DNA of 35,880 nucleotides from a virus, in the IMG/VR virus record IMGVR_UViG_3300042522_000589, positions 1-35,880 of that record; one strand, given 5' to 3'. Each line of letters begins with the position of its first letter. Position 1 is the stretch's first letter. Position numbers and translations under genes: made by a program. Below are positions 5,132 to 18,254 of this stretch, in pieces. The notes beneath the pieces are model-generated. The model was not told the origin of the DNA. It worked only from the letters and a program-made list of their open reading frames with translations, and searched no databases.

Positions 5132-5481
5132 GACACCGCCTTTTCACGCCGACGCGGCGGGTAGTGGTTGCCGTTCTTGCTCCACCGCAGATGCGGCGAG
5201 TTCGGGAACCGATCGACTTCCTCGATGGATTCCTCAACGCGCACGCGAACAACGCGGCAATCGCGCTTGCCCCGCCATGGCCCAACACGATCCCGCAAGA
5301 ATGCCCGCGCTTCGGCCTCGGTCGGGAACAGCGCATAGATGCCGACCGGATACATCTCATGCCGCGCAGGCCGGTTCCCGTCAAAGTTCCCGAACAGCGT
5401 GCCGTTGGGCTTGTATTCCGACGCGGGCACCTTGATCGCCCAGCCGTAGCGCATGCCGGAAATCTTGAGGTTGCCGCTCAT
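5128..5481 (-). CDS. Hypothetical phage protein
   Basis: This 117-residue basic protein begins MSGNLKISGMRYGWAIKVPA. It has a mixed alpha/beta look with a helix carrying TEAEARAFLRDRVGPW and a strand-like CRVVRVRVEESIEEV, and the tail is strongly basic (HYPPRRREKAVS). It is coupled by ATGA overlaps to the PAPS-reductase-like gene upstream and to the 101-residue gene downstream. No motif allows a functional name. Confidence 0.7.
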   Translation of the reverse strand: MSGNLKISGMRYGWAIKVPASEYKPNGTLFGNFDGNRPARHEMYPVGIYALFPTEAEARAFLRDRVGPWRGKRDCRVVRVRVEESIEEVDRFPNSPHLRWSKNGNHYPPRRREKAVS

Positions 5482-6323
5482 GTGCCGCAGCCTCCGGCAC
5501 AGCCATCCAGCCCCTCGACCAGCCCTTCATCAAACGGCAGCCGGGGCGTATTGCGCACAAGCTGTGCAAGTTCCGCGTATGTTTCACGATCCTTGCGAAA
5601 GCGGCGAGCATTCGCTTTGTGCCCTCGATGGACTGCCTCCATATCCGCCCACCACTTCATGCGCTCAGGATGGTCCGCAATCATTCGCATCGTTGAAGCG
5701 CGAGACTTTAGAAAACATCCATCGCAATTGCCTTCCCACTTGCCCGCAAGCATTAAATCGAAGGATTGACTGCGCCAAAACTCCATTACCTCGCCCGTTC
5801 TCACTCCGGCATCCGCAAGCGGCGTTGCTACGGTCCAACGGTCTCTGCTCGGCTTTTTCGTGCGCTCAACGCGGTGCATTTCGTCGGCACGCAGGCCAAC
5901 GACGTTTAGCCAATGCTTCCAGCCGCGCGCCACGCACCACCGCTTAATCGTGCGGATTTTCATTTCCTGCGTGCATGACCTTTGCACCGGGCTCGGTAAA
6001 TACTGCTTGCCATGCAAGAGCGCCGCAAACGGTTCTCCATCCCGGCTCGCGCTGTTGTGGCTCACGACCTTAAATGCAACGCGGCCAGCCACATCGCGCC
6101 CATATTCCAACCACGTAATCGGCACGTTCCACGCCGCGATCATATCCCGCACGAAATCCAACGTCGCCGGCATCTCGCGGCCTGTATTGGCAAACACCGC
6201 ATGCACGTCTGGCGGTAGCGCCCCGCCATGCGCCTGAAGGATGCGCCACAGCATATATCCGCTGGTGCGCCCGCCGGAGACGCTAATAATAGCGGGGCCG
6301 GTGATGTGGAAAGGATCGCTCAC
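5478..6323 (-). CDS. PAPS reductase/adenine nucleotide alpha hydrolase-like PP-loop protein
   Basis: Residues 16-23 (SGGRTSGY) form the PP-loop pyrophosphate-binding motif of the PAPS reductase/ATP-pyrophosphatase superfamily. ANTGRE (45-50), a Cys at 117 in RSCTQEMKI, and a Cys pair at 200/203 (NCDGCF) follow, with two more Cys near the C-terminus (275, 279). The cysteines could hold an Fe-S cluster or shuttle sulfur. I chose GTG 6323 (281 residues) because it makes a four-base GTGA overlap with the preceding stop and has AAGGGG upstream; a GTG at 6332 is possible. Phage members are common but mostly uncharacterised. Relatives include sulfate-assimilation enzymes and DndC, which makes DNA phosphorothioates. 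Its place beside a DNA methyltransferase makes nucleic-acid modification conceivable but unproved. Confidence 0.8.
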   Translation of the reverse strand: MSDPFHITGPAIISVSGGRTSGYMLWRILQAHGGALPPDVHAVFANTGREMPATLDFVRDMIAAWNVPITWLEYGRDVAGRVAFKVVSHNSASRDGEPFAALLHGKQYLPSPVQRSCTQEMKIRTIKRWCVARGWKHWLNVVGLRADEMHRVERTKKPSRDRWTVATPLADAGVRTGEVMEFWRSQSFDLMLAGKWEGNCDGCFLKSRASTMRMIADHPERMKWWADMEAVHRGHKANARRFRKDRETYAELAQLVRNTPRLPFDEGLVEGLDGCAGGCGT

Positions 6324-6523
6324 TTCCCGCACCCCTTACAAACAATCCGCCACCCCGGCCGCTTCTGCGCCTTCCGCAGATTGCACCCGCGCTCGATCTG
6401 CTGCGATTTGCAGTCGAGACACATCACCACCCAATGCGCGCCGTGGTTGCCTGTCCGCGCGTAGTCGATGACTTGGAGGTTGCCGATGGTTTGGCCGGCC
6501 ATTTCGATGAAGTCGGGGCTCAT
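6320..6523 (-). CDS. Small zinc-ribbon protein related to the N-terminus of LTGQRFG-type HNH proteins
   Basis: The 67-residue protein (MSPDFIEMAGQTIGNLQVID onward) contains CxxC at residues 35-38 (CLDC) and CxxC at 62-65 (CKGC), the pattern of a one-zinc ribbon. The segment GQTIGNLQVID followed by HWVVMCLDC parallels the N-terminal domain of the proteins at 8059-8340 and 27273-27785. It has no nuclease core. It overlaps the methyltransferase stop by four bases and precedes the PP-loop gene with a similar overlap. Likely a DNA- or RNA-binding accessory; no specific function is known. Confidence 0.7.
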   Translation of the reverse strand: MSPDFIEMAGQTIGNLQVIDYARTGNHGAHWVVMCLDCKSQQIERGCNLRKAQKRPGWRIVCKGCGK

Positions 6524-7368
6524 GCTGCCGCCCTCATGATGGCGCGGCCGATCAACTCCGGGATTTGCGGGACGACGGCGTTGCCGATGGCCCGCAGTCT
6601 GTCCACCCGAGCGGAAACCCCATGAGCCACTCGACCCACACAGGGTTCAGGGGGCCACCCGCCGCCTCCGGAAGCTGCACGCCCTTCGTTCCACCTCCCC
6701 GTTCCGAGTAGGGCTTCGCGTTGGGGAACCGGTAGTCCCTGGCCGCTGGCGTCGGCCACATCCTCGCCGCGACTGCCTCGATGAAGCTCCCCAACCGTCC
6801 CCTTTTGAAATACCTCTCCGCCATCGCTGGGGTGCAGTTGGAGGTCGTGGAGACCTTGTCGGCGGTCGGCGTCGGCCACGCGCTGATACGCGATGATCCA
6901 CACCCGATCCCGCCTGTGAGGGGCACCAACGGCGGCAGCTGAGATGCAATGCCACTCCGCATCATACCCGAACGTGGCCAGGTCTCCGAGAACGTCTCCA
7001 AGCCCCCGAAAAAGGAGTGCTGCGACGTTCTCCACGATGACGAAGCGGGGTCGTATCTCGCCAATAAGTCGGGCGTAATCGCGCCATAGGCCCGACCGTT
7101 CGCCGACAAGGCCTGCCCCGTTTCCAGCAACGCTGATGTCTTGGCAGGGGAACCCGCCGCAAATGACATCCACGGAAATTCCGTCTGCTGCCAGGCGCTC
7201 GCCTGTGAGGGTTCGTACGTCATCGTAACAGGGCACCTTCGGCCAGTGTTTCGCCAGCACGCGGCGGCAAAACGGGTCAACTTCACAGAAGGCGGCGGTC
7301 GTCATTCCCGCCCGCTCTAGGCCAAGGGAGAAGCCGCCGATGCCGCTGAACAGGTCCAGGACTCTCAC
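6520..7368 (-). CDS. DNA cytosine-5 methyltransferase
   Basis: The 282-residue protein has the ordered motifs of C5 DNA methyltransferases: I (DLFSGIGGFSLG, 5-16), IV with catalytic Cys75 (GGFPCQDIS, 71-79), VI (ENVAAL, 113-118), VIII (HRRDRVW, 151-157) and X (RAIGNAVVPQIPELIG near the C-terminus). It transfers a methyl group from S-adenosylmethionine to C5 of cytosine. Phages use such solitary enzymes to evade host restriction or to regulate. The target-recognition part between VIII and X is short and variable and is overlapped by a second plausible coding frame. Neighbours overlap by four bases (VRR-NUC upstream, zinc ribbon downstream). No cognate restriction enzyme is recognised. Confidence 0.95.
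   Translation of the reverse strand: MRVLDLFSGIGGFSLGLERAGMTTAAFCEVDPFCRRVLAKHWPKVPCYDDVRTLTGERLAADGISVDVICGGFPCQDISVAGNGAGLVGERSGLWRDYARLIGEIRPRFVIVENVAALLFRGLGDVLGDLATFGYDAEWHCISAAAVGAPHRRDRVWIIAYQRVADADRRQGLHDLQLHPSDGGEVFQKGTVGELHRGSRGEDVADASGQGLPVPQREALLGTGRWNEGRAASGGGGWPPEPCVGRVAHGVSARVDRLRAIGNAVVPQIPELIGRAIMRAAA
6552..7286 (-). CDS. Possible second coding frame overlapping the methyltransferase gene
   Basis: In the +1 frame relative to the methyltransferase, on the same strand, an open 244-codon frame carries strings typical of phage and metagenomic methylase-associated proteins: ETFSETWPRSGMMRSGIA, two WPTPxA segments (WPTPTADK, WPTPAARDY), and LNPVWVEWLMGFPLGWTD near the end. In other genomes I recall these motifs in annotated proteins next to or fused with C5 methyltransferases. 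The other frame has a complete methyltransferase, so both readings appear conserved. The true start is unknown; the first 30 residues look like shadow. Expression could need internal initiation or frameshifting. Moderately supported by motif memory only. Confidence 0.35.
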   Translation of the reverse strand: MKLTRFAAACWRNTGRRCPVTMTYEPSQASAWQQTEFPWMSFAAGSPAKTSALLETGQALSANGRAYGAITPDLLARYDPASSSWRTSQHSFFGGLETFSETWPRSGMMRSGIASQLPPLVPLTGGIGCGSSRISAWPTPTADKVSTTSNCTPAMAERYFKRGRLGSFIEAVAARMWPTPAARDYRFPNAKPYSERGGGTKGVQLPEAAGGPLNPVWVEWLMGFPLGWTDCGPSATPSSRKSRS

Positions 7369-7859
7369 GCAAAAATCCCCGCCTGCCTCGCCCTCGCGAT
7401 CTTCGCCAACCCCCGCGCCGTGGGTTTGGCGGTGCGAGTGCGCGGCGGCTTGTTGTGGCCCTTGGTGGGCACGTCCAGCGCGGCATCGTGGTGCATCGCC
7501 GCCAGCCGCCAGTTAGGCGCCAGCGGGATGCCGTGGCGCTGTAGGGCCTCGCCGAGTTGCTCGACGGAGCGCACCACCTCGTAGCCAAACTGGTTCCGCG
7601 CCATGGCCTGCGCAAATCCGTCCTGCGCATCCGTGGTGGTGTTCTTGCCCGATTTGAGTTCCACGCCAAGGAAGTAACCCGGCGCCCAAATCATAACGTC
7701 CGGAAGACCGCGCCGGATGCCTCGCGCTTTCTGCATCTGGCCCTGTCGCAACGTCTGCTTGCGCTCATGGCCCACGCTGGACCACCAGCACGGCGGCAGC
7801 ATGTGGCTGTCTAGGAACATGCGGCAGCGGTATTGGAGGCGATCTTCCGGGCGCATCAC
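7365..7859 (-). CDS. VRR-NUC domain nuclease
   Basis: The 164-residue protein has the VRR-NUC arrangement of the PD-(D/E)xK fold: GLPDVMIW (Asp54), then GVELKSGK with Glu67 and Lys69, then TDAQ with Gln79 and a following helix (QAMARNQFGYEVVRSVEQLG). These residues form the metal-dependent active site. VRR-NUC proteins in phages act as nucleases associated with recombination or Holliday-junction processing. The C-terminal 50 residues are basic and Pro-rich. Four-base overlaps couple it to the genes on both sides. As no RecE/lambda-exo-type gene is recognised, it may supply end processing for the RecT-like protein, though that is conjecture. Confidence 0.85.
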   Translation of the reverse strand: MMRPEDRLQYRCRMFLDSHMLPPCWWSSVGHERKQTLRQGQMQKARGIRRGLPDVMIWAPGYFLGVELKSGKNTTTDAQDGFAQAMARNQFGYEVVRSVEQLGEALQRHGIPLAPNWRLAAMHHDAALDVPTKGHNKPPRTRTAKPTARGLAKIARARQAGIFA

Positions 7860-8062
7860 CAGAAATTCCCCTTCCCCGGCGGCTCGTCCGCAAACTCAAA
7901 CCCCGCCTGCGCCATCTGCGCCCGTATCTCCGCCTCCATATCGACGCGGTAAACAATGCGCGGCGGGCTATCCATGATGGGCTGGCCGATCACGCGAACC
8001 GGGCGCGTGACGGTGCGGCGGGTGGCGGCGTAGGTGGCCTGTTTGGCTTCGTCTTCGGTCAT
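7856..8062 (-). CDS. Small hypothetical protein
   Basis: ATG at 8062 (MTEDEAKQATYAATRRTVTR, 68 residues) overlaps the stop of the zinc-ribbon gene by four bases, so it is preferred over the longer frame to 8122. The protein has a short helix, a basic segment (RTVTRPVRVIGQPI) and an acidic C-terminal helix (VDMEAEIRAQMAQAGFEF). No family is recognised. It is translationally coupled to the VRR-NUC gene that follows. Confidence 0.7.
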   Translation of the reverse strand: MTEDEAKQATYAATRRTVTRPVRVIGQPIMDSPPRIVYRVDMEAEIRAQMAQAGFEFADEPPGKGNFW

Positions 8063-8340
8063 GACTTTATTTGTTCCTCCTGATAATCGGGAAGTTCTTC
8101 GGCTGTATGGATAAAATCCCAATATTCAGCATCACCCCGCTGTGATGCATACCTAAGCAATCTTTTGCACCCACAACTTGTAATTGTCTCTTGAACAAGA
8201 AGTTTAGAAACAACCGTTTTCTCCGTTCCACACCGGCAAACACAAAGCCACGTTGCGCGGTAATTCGGATCACTGCCGACGCGCTGCAATACACGCAACC
8301 ACCCAAAACGCTGCCCTGTCAGGTCATGAACGTTATTCAC
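8059..8340 (-). CDS. LTGQRFG-type zinc-ribbon protein lacking an HNH nuclease core
   Basis: The GTG at 8340 overlaps the preceding stop by four bases and gives 93 residues. LTGQRFGWLRV (7-17) and the cysteines CVCRC (33, 35, 37) plus CGC (56, 58) match the N-terminal zinc domain of phage HNH/AP2-type homing endonucleases, including the full-length one at 27273-27785. After the last Cys pair only about 35 acidic residues follow, with no HNH-like region. It is therefore a natural truncation or a stand-alone DNA-binding module. Codon use is A/T-richer than its neighbours, for example the run of A/T-ending codons near its C-terminus, which suggests recent acquisition. Confidence 0.75.
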   Translation of the reverse strand: MNNVHDLTGQRFGWLRVLQRVGSDPNYRATWLCVCRCGTEKTVVSKLLVQETITSCGCKRLLRYASQRGDAEYWDFIHTAEELPDYQEEQIKS

Positions 8341-9332
8341 GCCCCTGCCCCAAAATGCAGCCGCCCAATCTTCTTCTTCGCGCGGTCTTTCCAGTTGCCC
8401 GTCTCCCCGGCTGCTTCGTGATATCGCCGGATCACGTCGCGCCCCTCGTCCAGCGTGGCCGTCGTGACTGCCGCTGCTGCCGCCGGGCAAACCTGGATGC
8501 GCCCGCCTGCCGCAAGGAACGCCTCGACGCTCTCGTAACGGGGTTTGGGCGCGCGCGGGCTGTTGTCGCGCACCCACGTCGCCGGCAGCTTGTTGGGCTT
8601 GCGTGGTGCCGGCGGTGGCTTGGGTTTTGGCGCCTTGGCCACCTTCGGCCGGGGCGGAACCGTCACCATCCCCAGCCGTGCCAGCCTGCGCGCCCGCTTG
8701 GCGCTGATGCCGAGTAGCTTGGCGCTGACAGGCAGCGAATACGTCTCGTTTAACGACGCCTGAAGCATCGGCGCCAGTTCCGCAGCCGCCGCTTCGTGCA
8801 TGGCCTTGACGGTCGCCGCGCCACGCTTGGCGCCGGTCCACACGCTATCGTCCGCCCGCACGATGCGCAGCTTGCGAGCGTGGGCACGCATGCCCTTCAT
8901 GGTTGTTCCGTCGTTGCCCCGGGCCTGCCGGTAAAGTGCCAGCACGGCCTTAAGATCGGGATGCGTGGCGAAATGTTCCACCAGCACCGCAGACGCGCGT
9001 TCCATTTCGCCGCTACGAGGCTTGCGTATCAGCGTTTCTATACCGTGCGCCGACATAAAATTGGCCACTGTAAATTGGGACAGGTTCAACCGTTGCGCCA
9101 TCTTGCGCTGAGACACACCTTCAGCGGCCCATCGGCGGATTGTGCCGGCGTCTAGCGCAGCGTGCGGGGGATGGGTCACGGGTCTGCCCCCCGCCGCAGG
9201 TCCAACCGGGGGGAGATGCCCGCCCGCGCCCAATTCCCCACCAGCAGGCGCGGACGAACCGCTGCCCGCGCTGGTGGCGGCCATCTCGTCAGAACTGCCC
9301 GCGCAGCCGCCGATTTGGAGATGATCGATCAC
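8337..9332 (-). CDS. Helix-turn-helix DNA-binding protein
   Basis: The 331-residue protein has a Gly/Ala/Pro-rich N-terminus (to about 55). A Hin-like/homeodomain-type helix-turn-helix follows (about 60-98: TIRRWAAEGVSQRKMAQRLN, then SQFTVANFM). A second helix-turn-helix-like segment (SAKLLGISAKRARRLARLGM) lies in the middle. A Lys/Pro/Ala-rich linker and a short C-terminal domain (YESVEAFLAAGGRIQ) come after. There is no resolvase, transposase or integrase catalytic motif. It is the second gene leftward from the control region, with a four-base overlap with the Cro-like gene. A role as early regulator or DNA-organising protein is inferred; family not recognised. Confidence 0.75.
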   Translation of the reverse strand: MIDHLQIGGCAGSSDEMAATSAGSGSSAPAGGELGAGGHLPPVGPAAGGRPVTHPPHAALDAGTIRRWAAEGVSQRKMAQRLNLSQFTVANFMSAHGIETLIRKPRSGEMERASAVLVEHFATHPDLKAVLALYRQARGNDGTTMKGMRAHARKLRIVRADDSVWTGAKRGAATVKAMHEAAAAELAPMLQASLNETYSLPVSAKLLGISAKRARRLARLGMVTVPPRPKVAKAPKPKPPPAPRKPNKLPATWVRDNSPRAPKPRYESVEAFLAAGGRIQVCPAAAAAVTTATLDEGRDVIRRYHEAAGETGNWKDRAKKKIGRLHFGAGA

Positions 9333-16367: not shown

Positions 16368-18254
16368 TTACACACCTGCCACTGCATTCCACGTGCCGCC
16401 ACCTTGGGACACGTAGAGGGTTGATCCGACACCGCCATCTGTGCGGAGCCATTGCGAGCCCCGAGGTTGGGTGCCAGATGCCGCCCCGGTGCCGCTGCGG
16501 ACAGTCGGCCCGGCGGCGTTGACGGTCAGGCTATCGACCTGCGTTGACGATCCGGTATTGAGTAAGAGCGGGGCCTGCGTCGCCGTCATCGTCACTTGAA
16601 GCAACGCCTGCCGCGTTGTACTGACCGCGCCCGAGCTGGTGATCGTCGGCGGCAAGAATTCATCGTAAAGCGTGCCGGCGTTGGTAACGGTGACGGTCAG
16701 GATTTTGAGAAACGGCACCAGTGTGCAGCCCGTGCCGGCGCCGCTTGTCGTGGTGGCCGATGCCCCAACTGGCGGCACGCTGTAGCTGCCCGCCGTGGTG
16801 ATCGCTACGCCCTGCACGGCGCCGCTACCGTCCACCTTATTTACGGTGCCGACGCACGCGGTTGAGAATGTCCCGCCCGTGAGCGTGATGGTATTGCCCA
16901 CAACATAGCCGCTGCCACCCACAGCAACTTGGCTGAAAAATTCGCACGCGTATGTATCGACCGTAGCCGTTGCCAGAGTGCCGCCACCAGGAGATGCTGA
17001 ACATGTGAGCGTCACCGCGCCGGAATAAAGGCCACCCTCAAGCACGGTGATCGTGTCGACGACGGCAGTTTTCGCCACAATGGCACTGCGGGTTTGCAGC
17101 GCGCCACCGCTGGCCACCAACGATCCGACGTTTCCAGTCGGCCCAACACGGAAGCCGGCGCTTTCAAAGGTTGACCGGCCGAAGGTGATGCCGAGAAAGT
17201 TGATCCCCGTCGCGGCTACAGGCGTTCCGCTCAGTCCTGGGAAATACGACATGATCTGGCTATTTGTGCCGAACGGGTAAGCCCCTTCCGGGCCGCCGAT
17301 CTGCCACCCGACGCGCCAGCTAGACGCGCCCGCTTGGTCGTTGATCCCGTAGGCGAAGTCCGCAATCAGCCCCGGAACCGCGTCGTCTGACCACTTGACG
17401 ACTTTCATGCCGCCCTTCCACAACACCATATTGCCGGCTGTTACGCCGACGTCAGTCTCGTTGCCGAAAGTAGAGTTCCAATACTGGCCGCTTCCGGTTC
17501 GAACCCGCGTGGCATCGTTGCGGCCGAACAGGTTGCCCCGGTGCGCCCCGATAACGCCACCCGCACTGTCGTAGGAATATGCAAAGGACGCGCCAGATAC
17601 GTGATAGGCGCTCGTTCCTGCTGTTCCGCTCGATCCCACACCAGGCGATGCTGGATTGCCTACGTAAAGCTGCGTTTGGTGCAGCGTGCGGCCTCCGGAC
17701 CACCCAGCGCGCATGGTTGATGCCATGAAGTTAACCAGAATACCGTTGTTTGTGTTTGACATAGCAACACGGTCTTCGTCTAGAACTTGGGCGTAGATGC
17801 CCTCAAGATTGCTTGTCAAAGACCCGCGCTTGATGCCGCCGATGCGCACCGCCGGCCCGCCCGCCCCGCTCATCGTCTGGTCGGCGAAGAGCGACATCAG
17901 GCGCGGGGGTGTGCTCGACGTGCCGGCCGTGAAATTGCCGATCGACAATCGCGGGACACTGACGGCGCCGCGATTCGGCAGCACAAAACGAATATCGGGC
18001 GAGGCATCGTCGCCGACACTGGTAAAAGTAACTGGATTACCAGAAGTCCCGCCCGCAACCGTGACATAATTAGCTGCATTACCGCCAAGCGTGGTCGTGC
18101 CCGTAAACGTCGGAGACGTGAAAAGCTGCGCAACCGTGGCCTTGCGCGTCGTGCCAGTCAGAGGTCCGGTGCTGCCCTGCGTCACAGGGAGAATATCGGT
18201 CGTGCCAACAGAGGCAACCGCCCCAAGCTGCGAGATGTATTGGATCGCGGTCAC
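16368..18254 (-). CDS. Tail fibre protein
   Basis: The 628-residue protein has an N-terminal phage-fibre module (ISQLGAVASVGTTDILPVTQ, then TRKATVAQLFTSPTFTGTTT, a recurrent fibre segment). A long central beta-rich region of unclear fold follows, then Thr/Gly/Val repeats around 395-560 (TCSASPGGGTLATATVDTYA and similar). The C-terminal region is typical of fibres: GTQPRGSQWLRTDGGVGSTL then YVSQGGGTWNAVAGV. It overlaps the spike gene stop by four bases. Role: host-contact fibre. There is no clear enzymatic domain; exact receptor unknown. Confidence 0.8.
   Translation of the reverse strand: MTAIQYISQLGAVASVGTTDILPVTQGSTGPLTGTTRKATVAQLFTSPTFTGTTTLGGNAANYVTVAGGTSGNPVTFTSVGDDASPDIRFVLPNRGAVSVPRLSIGNFTAGTSSTPPRLMSLFADQTMSGAGGPAVRIGGIKRGSLTSNLEGIYAQVLDEDRVAMSNTNNGILVNFMASTMRAGWSGGRTLHQTQLYVGNPASPGVGSSGTAGTSAYHVSGASFAYSYDSAGGVIGAHRGNLFGRNDATRVRTGSGQYWNSTFGNETDVGVTAGNMVLWKGGMKVVKWSDDAVPGLIADFAYGINDQAGASSWRVGWQIGGPEGAYPFGTNSQIMSYFPGLSGTPVAATGINFLGITFGRSTFESAGFRVGPTGNVGSLVASGGALQTRSAIVAKTAVVDTITVLEGGLYSGAVTLTCSASPGGGTLATATVDTYACEFFSQVAVGGSGYVVGNTITLTGGTFSTACVGTVNKVDGSGAVQGVAITTAGSYSVPPVGASATTTSGAGTGCTLVPFLKILTVTVTNAGTLYDEFLPPTITSSGAVSTTRQALLQVTMTATQAPLLLNTGSSTQVDSLTVNAAGPTVRSGTGAASGTQPRGSQWLRTDGGVGSTLYVSQGGGTWNAVAGV

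Follow-up and report, generated by a model that had tools for sequence, protein, structure and literature searches.

The methyltransferase locus described here very probably encodes a predicted two-polypeptide C5-cytosine DNA methyltransferase, in the layout of M.EcoHK31I, from a single stretch of DNA. One frame (alpha) specifies the putative catalytic chain, and the overlapping beta, shifted by +1 relative to alpha, is a true gene of its own, with purifying selection acting on both frames. A second subunit is the best reading of beta because it appears to carry motif IX, which is lacking in the methyltransferase frame. The overlap is present in hundreds of phage sequences, in many bacteria and in an archaeon.

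Organization of the locus

The window, which is the whole stretch of DNA that was analysed, is a 35,880-base IMG/VR virus record with a GC content of 63%. The two open reading frames (ORFs) proposed in the initial annotation are both present in it, and both lie on the minus strand, which that annotation did not give. The genes of the locus are as follows.

6520..7368, minus strand: alpha, C5-cytosine DNA methyltransferase, 282 aa, GTG start; motifs I-VIII and X, no in-frame motif IX
6552..7286, minus strand: beta ORF, +1 relative to alpha; 244 codons when counted from the first GTG, 249 codons from stop to stop
6552..7169, minus strand: constrained part of beta, 205 aa from the ATG at 7169, beginning MSFAAGSPAKTSA; the extra conservation begins near alpha codons 52-63
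7365..7859, minus strand: upstream VRR-NUC-like nuclease gene, 4-bp overlap with the alpha start
6320..6523, minus strand: downstream small ORF, 67 aa, 4-bp overlap with the alpha stop

Judged by the 4-bp overlaps, alpha apparently lies within an operon with the upstream VRR-NUC-like gene and the downstream small ORF. The stretch from the ATG at 7169 is likely to be the real beta protein or near to it, with alternative beta starts being possible. Other genes of the window include an HNH endonuclease-like ORF close upstream of the methyltransferase operon (8059-8508, minus strand; phrog_374, E=9e-18) and a PAPS-reductase-like protein two genes downstream of the methyltransferase (5478-6332, minus strand; phrog_424, E=1e-54). 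A 628-aa ORF in the structural gene region (16368-18254, minus strand) is without a PHROG match.

The putative catalytic chain

Profile searches match alpha to PF00145 (E=2e-42), with the match restricted to residues 1-164, and to phrog_363 (E=9e-82). The sequence and its alignment to M.HhaI locate the first four of the motifs below, and a second hhalign segment locates the fifth.

7333..7356, minus strand: alpha motif I, DLFSGIGG
7132..7158, minus strand: alpha motif IV, GGFPCQDIS, with the catalytic Cys
7024..7032, minus strand: alpha motif VI, ENV
6892..6918, minus strand: alpha motif VIII, HRRDRVWII
6565..6591, minus strand: alpha motif X, AIGNAVVPQ (E=2.6e-4)

Alpha therefore has what defines a C5-methyltransferase of the PF00145 type in motifs I, IV (PCQ), VI (ENV) and VIII and in the large-domain fold, and lacks a motif IX in the same chain. 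When alpha is compared with 35 canonical C5-methyltransferases by hhalign, residues 1-167 align over motifs I-VIII (E=4e-39) and motif X aligns separately (E=2.6e-4). The canonical positions matched are 2-175 and 311-333 only, which leaves motif IX (~288-303) uncovered, and because of this gap alpha is filed as a catalytic subunit and not as a complete single-chain enzyme. The initial annotation had one frame holding all C5-methyltransferase motifs, which is wrong with respect to motif IX. In the AF2 model of alpha, the pLDDT is ~95 over residues 1-160, falls below 50 over residues 182-248 and is 85-97 in the motif X helix; the predicted fold matches M.HaeIII and M.HhaI in Foldseek.

Openness and constraint of the +1 frame

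The main set of homologues was selected by alpha similarity alone and consists of 80 loci, the window and 79 from IMG/VR. Of these, 74 are non-redundant, with a median alpha amino acid identity of 58% and a GC content of 0.46-0.68. The null was generated by shuffling synonymous codons within each gene, which preserves both the alpha protein and its codon usage. A beta match is found in the +1 frame of all 80 alpha-selected loci. The +1 frame is open in every one of the 74 non-redundant loci, with a median longest run of 250 codons versus 57.5 in the +2 frame, and the shuffled +1 run averages 122 codons. Runs above the shuffle null at p<=0.01 occur at 57 of the 74 loci in +1 and at none in +2. 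In the window gene (GC 64%), the 249-codon run is reached by none of 200 shuffles (maximum 207, mean 121); by itself this run is beyond chance, though not overwhelmingly.

The decisive evidence for a +1 gene is conservation across homologues. The +1 protein is conserved above the null with z=21 at alpha codons 61-80, 51 at codons 101-120, 55 at codons 121-140, 41 at codons 141-160 and 93 at codons 241-260, all of these being effect measures and not probabilities, with sequences treated as independent. Alpha codons 1-60, which serve as an internal control for shared ancestry, give z=2 to 5 only. Third-base identity at fourfold sites follows the same course: it is 0.323 in codons 1-60 (expected 0.264), climbs to 0.626 in codons 101-160 and reaches 0.883 in the motif IX block. 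At single-codon resolution, no excess is seen over codons 37-51, and constraint sets in around codons 52-63. The very close relatives (L001-L004) hold too few differences for per-frame dN/dS.

The initial annotation had proposed a true overlapping gene and had named two findings that would speak against it, namely homologues in which the +1 frame is broken while the methyltransferase is intact, and a lack of purifying selection in +1. Broken frames of that kind number 0 of 74, and strong extra constraint is present in both the z values and the fourfold sites. The proposal is borne out by a +1 frame that is kept open and by constraint beyond that of alpha and its codon usage.

A few loci are irregular. 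In L238 (3720-4506) and L255 (1426-2215), an in-frame stop codon interrupts alpha within motif VIII or immediately behind it; motif X follows in frame downstream and beta is open. These loci may be pseudogenes, may contain sequencing errors or may represent another split form. In Mycobacterium phage Llama (L160, 2383-3142), the methyltransferase is annotated as genes 74 and 75, and the frames of alpha and beta shift within a shared region, suggestive of an indel that hit them both.

Sequence of beta and the location of motif IX

The strings that the initial annotation quoted from the +1 ORF, SETWPRSGMMRSG, WPTPTA, WPTPAA and LNPVWVEWLMGFPLGWTD, are all present in it and lie at the following positions.

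6951..6989, minus strand: beta block SETWPRSGMMRSG, in +1 over alpha between motifs VI and VIII; z=55, alpha codons 121-140
6861..6878, minus strand: beta WPTPTA block 1; the alpha frame reads VADAD
6741..6758, minus strand: beta WPTPAA block 2; the alpha frame reads VADAS; z=32, codons 201-220
6597..6650, minus strand: putative beta motif IX block LNPVWVEWLMGFPLGWTD; the alpha frame reads VGRVAHGVSARVDRL; z=93, fourfold third-base identity 0.883, placed by hhalign onto canonical motif IX

The recurring family near phage methyltransferases to which the initial annotation pointed exists as phrog_1008 ('DNA methyltransferase'), whose profile beta matches with E=1.4e-29 over residues 21-196. The label of this PHROG states no subunit role and is silent on the overlap. 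Some phage records annotate a second nested or overlapping ORF, as in fTaEco01 (TE1_032, 'Mte8-like'), K1ind2 (ORF28) and Paenibacillus phage DevRi (DevRi_57); both ORFs are annotated without comment in some phage records, and the one for DevRi bears the remark 'Not called by any program'. Single-sequence and profile searches give beta no match in Pfam, NCBIfam, PADLOC or the PDB, and a PDB profile search with the class B and C beta described below likewise gives no match. For beta modelled alone, the AF2 fold is of low confidence (pLDDT 60, pTM 0.29).

Against the 35 canonical C5-methyltransferases, beta has a single hhalign match, which falls on motif IX with LNPxWVEWLMGFP over RxLTPRECARLMGFP and is weak alone (E=0.06). 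The one local alignment with E. coli Dcm falls again on motif IX and is likewise weak alone (E=0.34). Motif IX is assigned to beta because of its position and because of relatives whose beta runs into motif X. In class B, which includes Streptomyces phage Samy, Mycobacterium phage Peaches, Arthrobacter phage Andrew and the archaeal locus L250, alpha ends after motif VIII, and the +1 chain carries LPTP or WPTP blocks, then the motif IX block, then motif X. In class C (Mycobacterium phage Babsiella), motifs I-VIII and X, the LPTP blocks and the motif IX block all share a frame within a single 772-codon ORF. The class A beta is homologous to the class B and C chains over its N-terminal half and the WPTP blocks (hhalign E=8e-29), and the class B and C chains align to motifs IX and X with E=0.018 against Dcm alone and E=6.5e-4 against the 35 canonical enzymes. 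Computation from these alignments places motif IX in beta and not in alpha.

Possible translation of beta

Internal initiation near alpha codons 62-67 is the favoured route to beta, as suggested by start codons: an ATG stands at alpha codon 62 in 35 of the 74 loci versus 21 expected. The same alpha-selected loci show neither an enrichment of Shine-Dalgarno sequences for beta nor a beta start codon that is strictly conserved, and the synonymous constraint begins slightly upstream of the commonest ATG. These features would suit a ribosomal frameshift that joins the N-terminal part of alpha to beta instead of making a separate protein, which is nevertheless unlikely. Shifting after motif VIII would leave the constraint on +1 codons 61-160 unexplained and is therefore excluded as the sole route, and a shift near codon 60 would give a chain that loses motifs IV-VIII. 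No slippery signal was identified, nor was a frozen stretch that could act as a frameshift signal found at the onset of constraint, which is gradual near codons 52-63. The excess of ATG at codon 62 also argues against a fusion and points to internal initiation as the probable source of beta.

A proposed division of labour between the chains

The small domain of C5-methyltransferases holds the target recognition domain and motif IX. In the proposed mechanism, alpha would be the catalytic large domain, with motifs I-VIII and a C-terminal motif X helix, and would bind AdoMet and catalyse the reaction. Beta would supply motif IX and the WPTP-block linkers, and because it carries these, it is likely to complete or stabilise the small domain that recognises DNA. 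We infer that the two chains assemble on phage or host DNA, that both are needed, and that together they methylate a cytosine with a certain specificity. Methylation would presumably shield phage DNA from restriction. The initial annotation had suggested a product for alternative target recognition, which holds to the extent that the small domain is probably shared with or supplied by beta and is otherwise off the mark.

The +1 protein could instead be a real but separate product, such as an anti-restriction protein or a regulator, that was overprinted on alpha by chance. Such a product would fit the lack of any recognised beta domain in Pfam, NCBIfam and PADLOC, and also the N-terminal half of beta (SPAKTSA...SETWPRSGMMRNG), which resembles no solved structure. 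It is quite improbable in view of the pairing of the two genes. When GTDB bacterial and archaeal loci were chosen by beta, 79 of 80 overlap alpha in +1, and the sole exception (L192) has a frameshift that breaks both frames, leaving no beta without alpha; beta is maintained almost only together with alpha. Furthermore, the most conserved beta block falls exactly on the motif IX that alpha lacks, and the same chain bears motif X in relatives. The anti-restriction product put forward in the initial annotation is thus unsupported, since the +1 protein appears to carry the motif IX that is missing from the alpha frame, and a second subunit remains the preferred reading.

Controls and replication

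For the control sample, 46 C5-methyltransferase ORFs were taken from one bacterial class plus a small number of other genomes. It includes six alpha/beta-type genes, five of which come from genomes reached via beta, and these six have a +1 run at p=0. The other 40, canonical C5-methyltransferases, have +1 runs at p=0.05 to 1, none at p<=0.01, and most keep motif IX in frame. Beta is found in 9 of the 274 genomes of the control bacterial class. In a control set of E. coli Dcm-like enzymes, 1 of 13 loci reaches p<=0.01. A second subfamily, collected by using alpha of phage K1ind2 as the query and comprising 42 non-redundant loci, has a +1 run above the null in 42 of 42 at p<=0.05 and in 38 of 42 at p<=0.01, at GC contents down to 0.45.

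Another reading holds that GC-rich codon usage and conserved alpha residues together keep the +1 frame open, with no gene behind it. It draws on the 63% GC of the window and on the 121-codon runs that the shuffled gene still averages, but has a negligible probability and was rejected on the canonical control and the second-subfamily replication. All 74 homologues are open down to a GC of 0.46 and the second subfamily down to 0.45; beta conservation lies far over the alpha-preserving null, and at the motif IX block the fourfold sites hardly vary; nothing alike occurs in the 40 canonical enzymes.

A second class of overlap

One locus of the Dcm-like control set, L331, has a different +1 ORF over a canonical Dcm-like enzyme. 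The loci of this second overlap class (L331/L390-L402 and L404-L483, from IMG/VR) lie outside the window. Among loci found with the L331 +1 ORF, 13 of 14 have the overlap; among those selected by alpha, all 45 non-redundant phage loci are above the shuffle null at p<=0.01, with a GC content of 0.35-0.54. The +1 ORF of this class is conserved and spans alpha codons ~41-180. Motif IX is kept in frame 0 in 42 of the 45 loci, and a recognition-domain element of the LSDILEExVDEKYFLSE type is found in +1 in 43 of 45 and in frame 0 in none. E. coli Dcm has a similar element (LAQLLDPMVEAKYILTP) in frame. Part of the likeness between the +1 proteins of the two classes is forced by alpha residues. Nested +1 second subunits may well be a recurrent C5-methyltransferase design, in which both lineages would place small-domain pieces over alpha motifs IV-VIII.

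To our knowledge, few cases are documented in double-stranded DNA phages and bacteria in which two genes on the same strand overlap by more than 600 bp and both frames are strongly selected. The second protein is missing from Pfam, NCBIfam and PADLOC and is frequently unannotated. Should beta prove to be an essential subunit, a partner that they need has been left out of the annotation, and perhaps also of the cloning and testing, of many cytosine methyltransferases regarded as phage 'orphans'.

Comparison with known methyltransferases

The canonical single-chain enzymes M.HhaI, M.HaeIII and E. coli Dcm have the catalytic-domain fold and the motifs in common with alpha. Canonical single-chain C5-methyltransferases differ from the window in that motif IX is in frame and the +1 frame is unremarkable. 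A search of one literature library found no paper on a nested methyltransferase pair in phages.

Two-polypeptide enzymes are the closer parallels. M.EcoHK31I is an E. coli restriction-modification enzyme that recognizes YGGCCR, and the target of M.AquI is CYCGRG. Lee, Kam and Shaw reportedly found in 1995 that the small chain of M.EcoHK31I comes from a different reading frame within the gene of the large one. The window has a large chain with motifs I-VIII and X without IX and a small chain nested in another frame, and the small chain has a predicted motif IX, the alignment of which is weak alone and is joined by relatives whose beta runs on into motif X. As summarized in PMC3404938, the large polypeptide of M.EcoHK31I contains motifs I-VIII and X and a predicted recognition domain, and the small one contains motif IX only; M.AquI is split between motif VIII and motifs IX-X, with a small chain that consists of the distal variable region and motifs IX-X.

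M.EcoHK31I and the window pair are alike in the layout of motifs across two chains, a likeness drawn from the published description. They differ in that M.EcoHK31I has a known specificity and a recognition domain predicted in its large chain, whereas the matching stretch of the window alpha looks disordered, and in that the window pair lies in a phage genome. M.AquI resembles the window in having two chains from one locus, and its split is shared by the class B relatives; the window is unlike it in having motif X in alpha and a fully nested beta. The layout of the window matches one enzyme known since 1995, yet it proves to be widespread among phages and bacteria.
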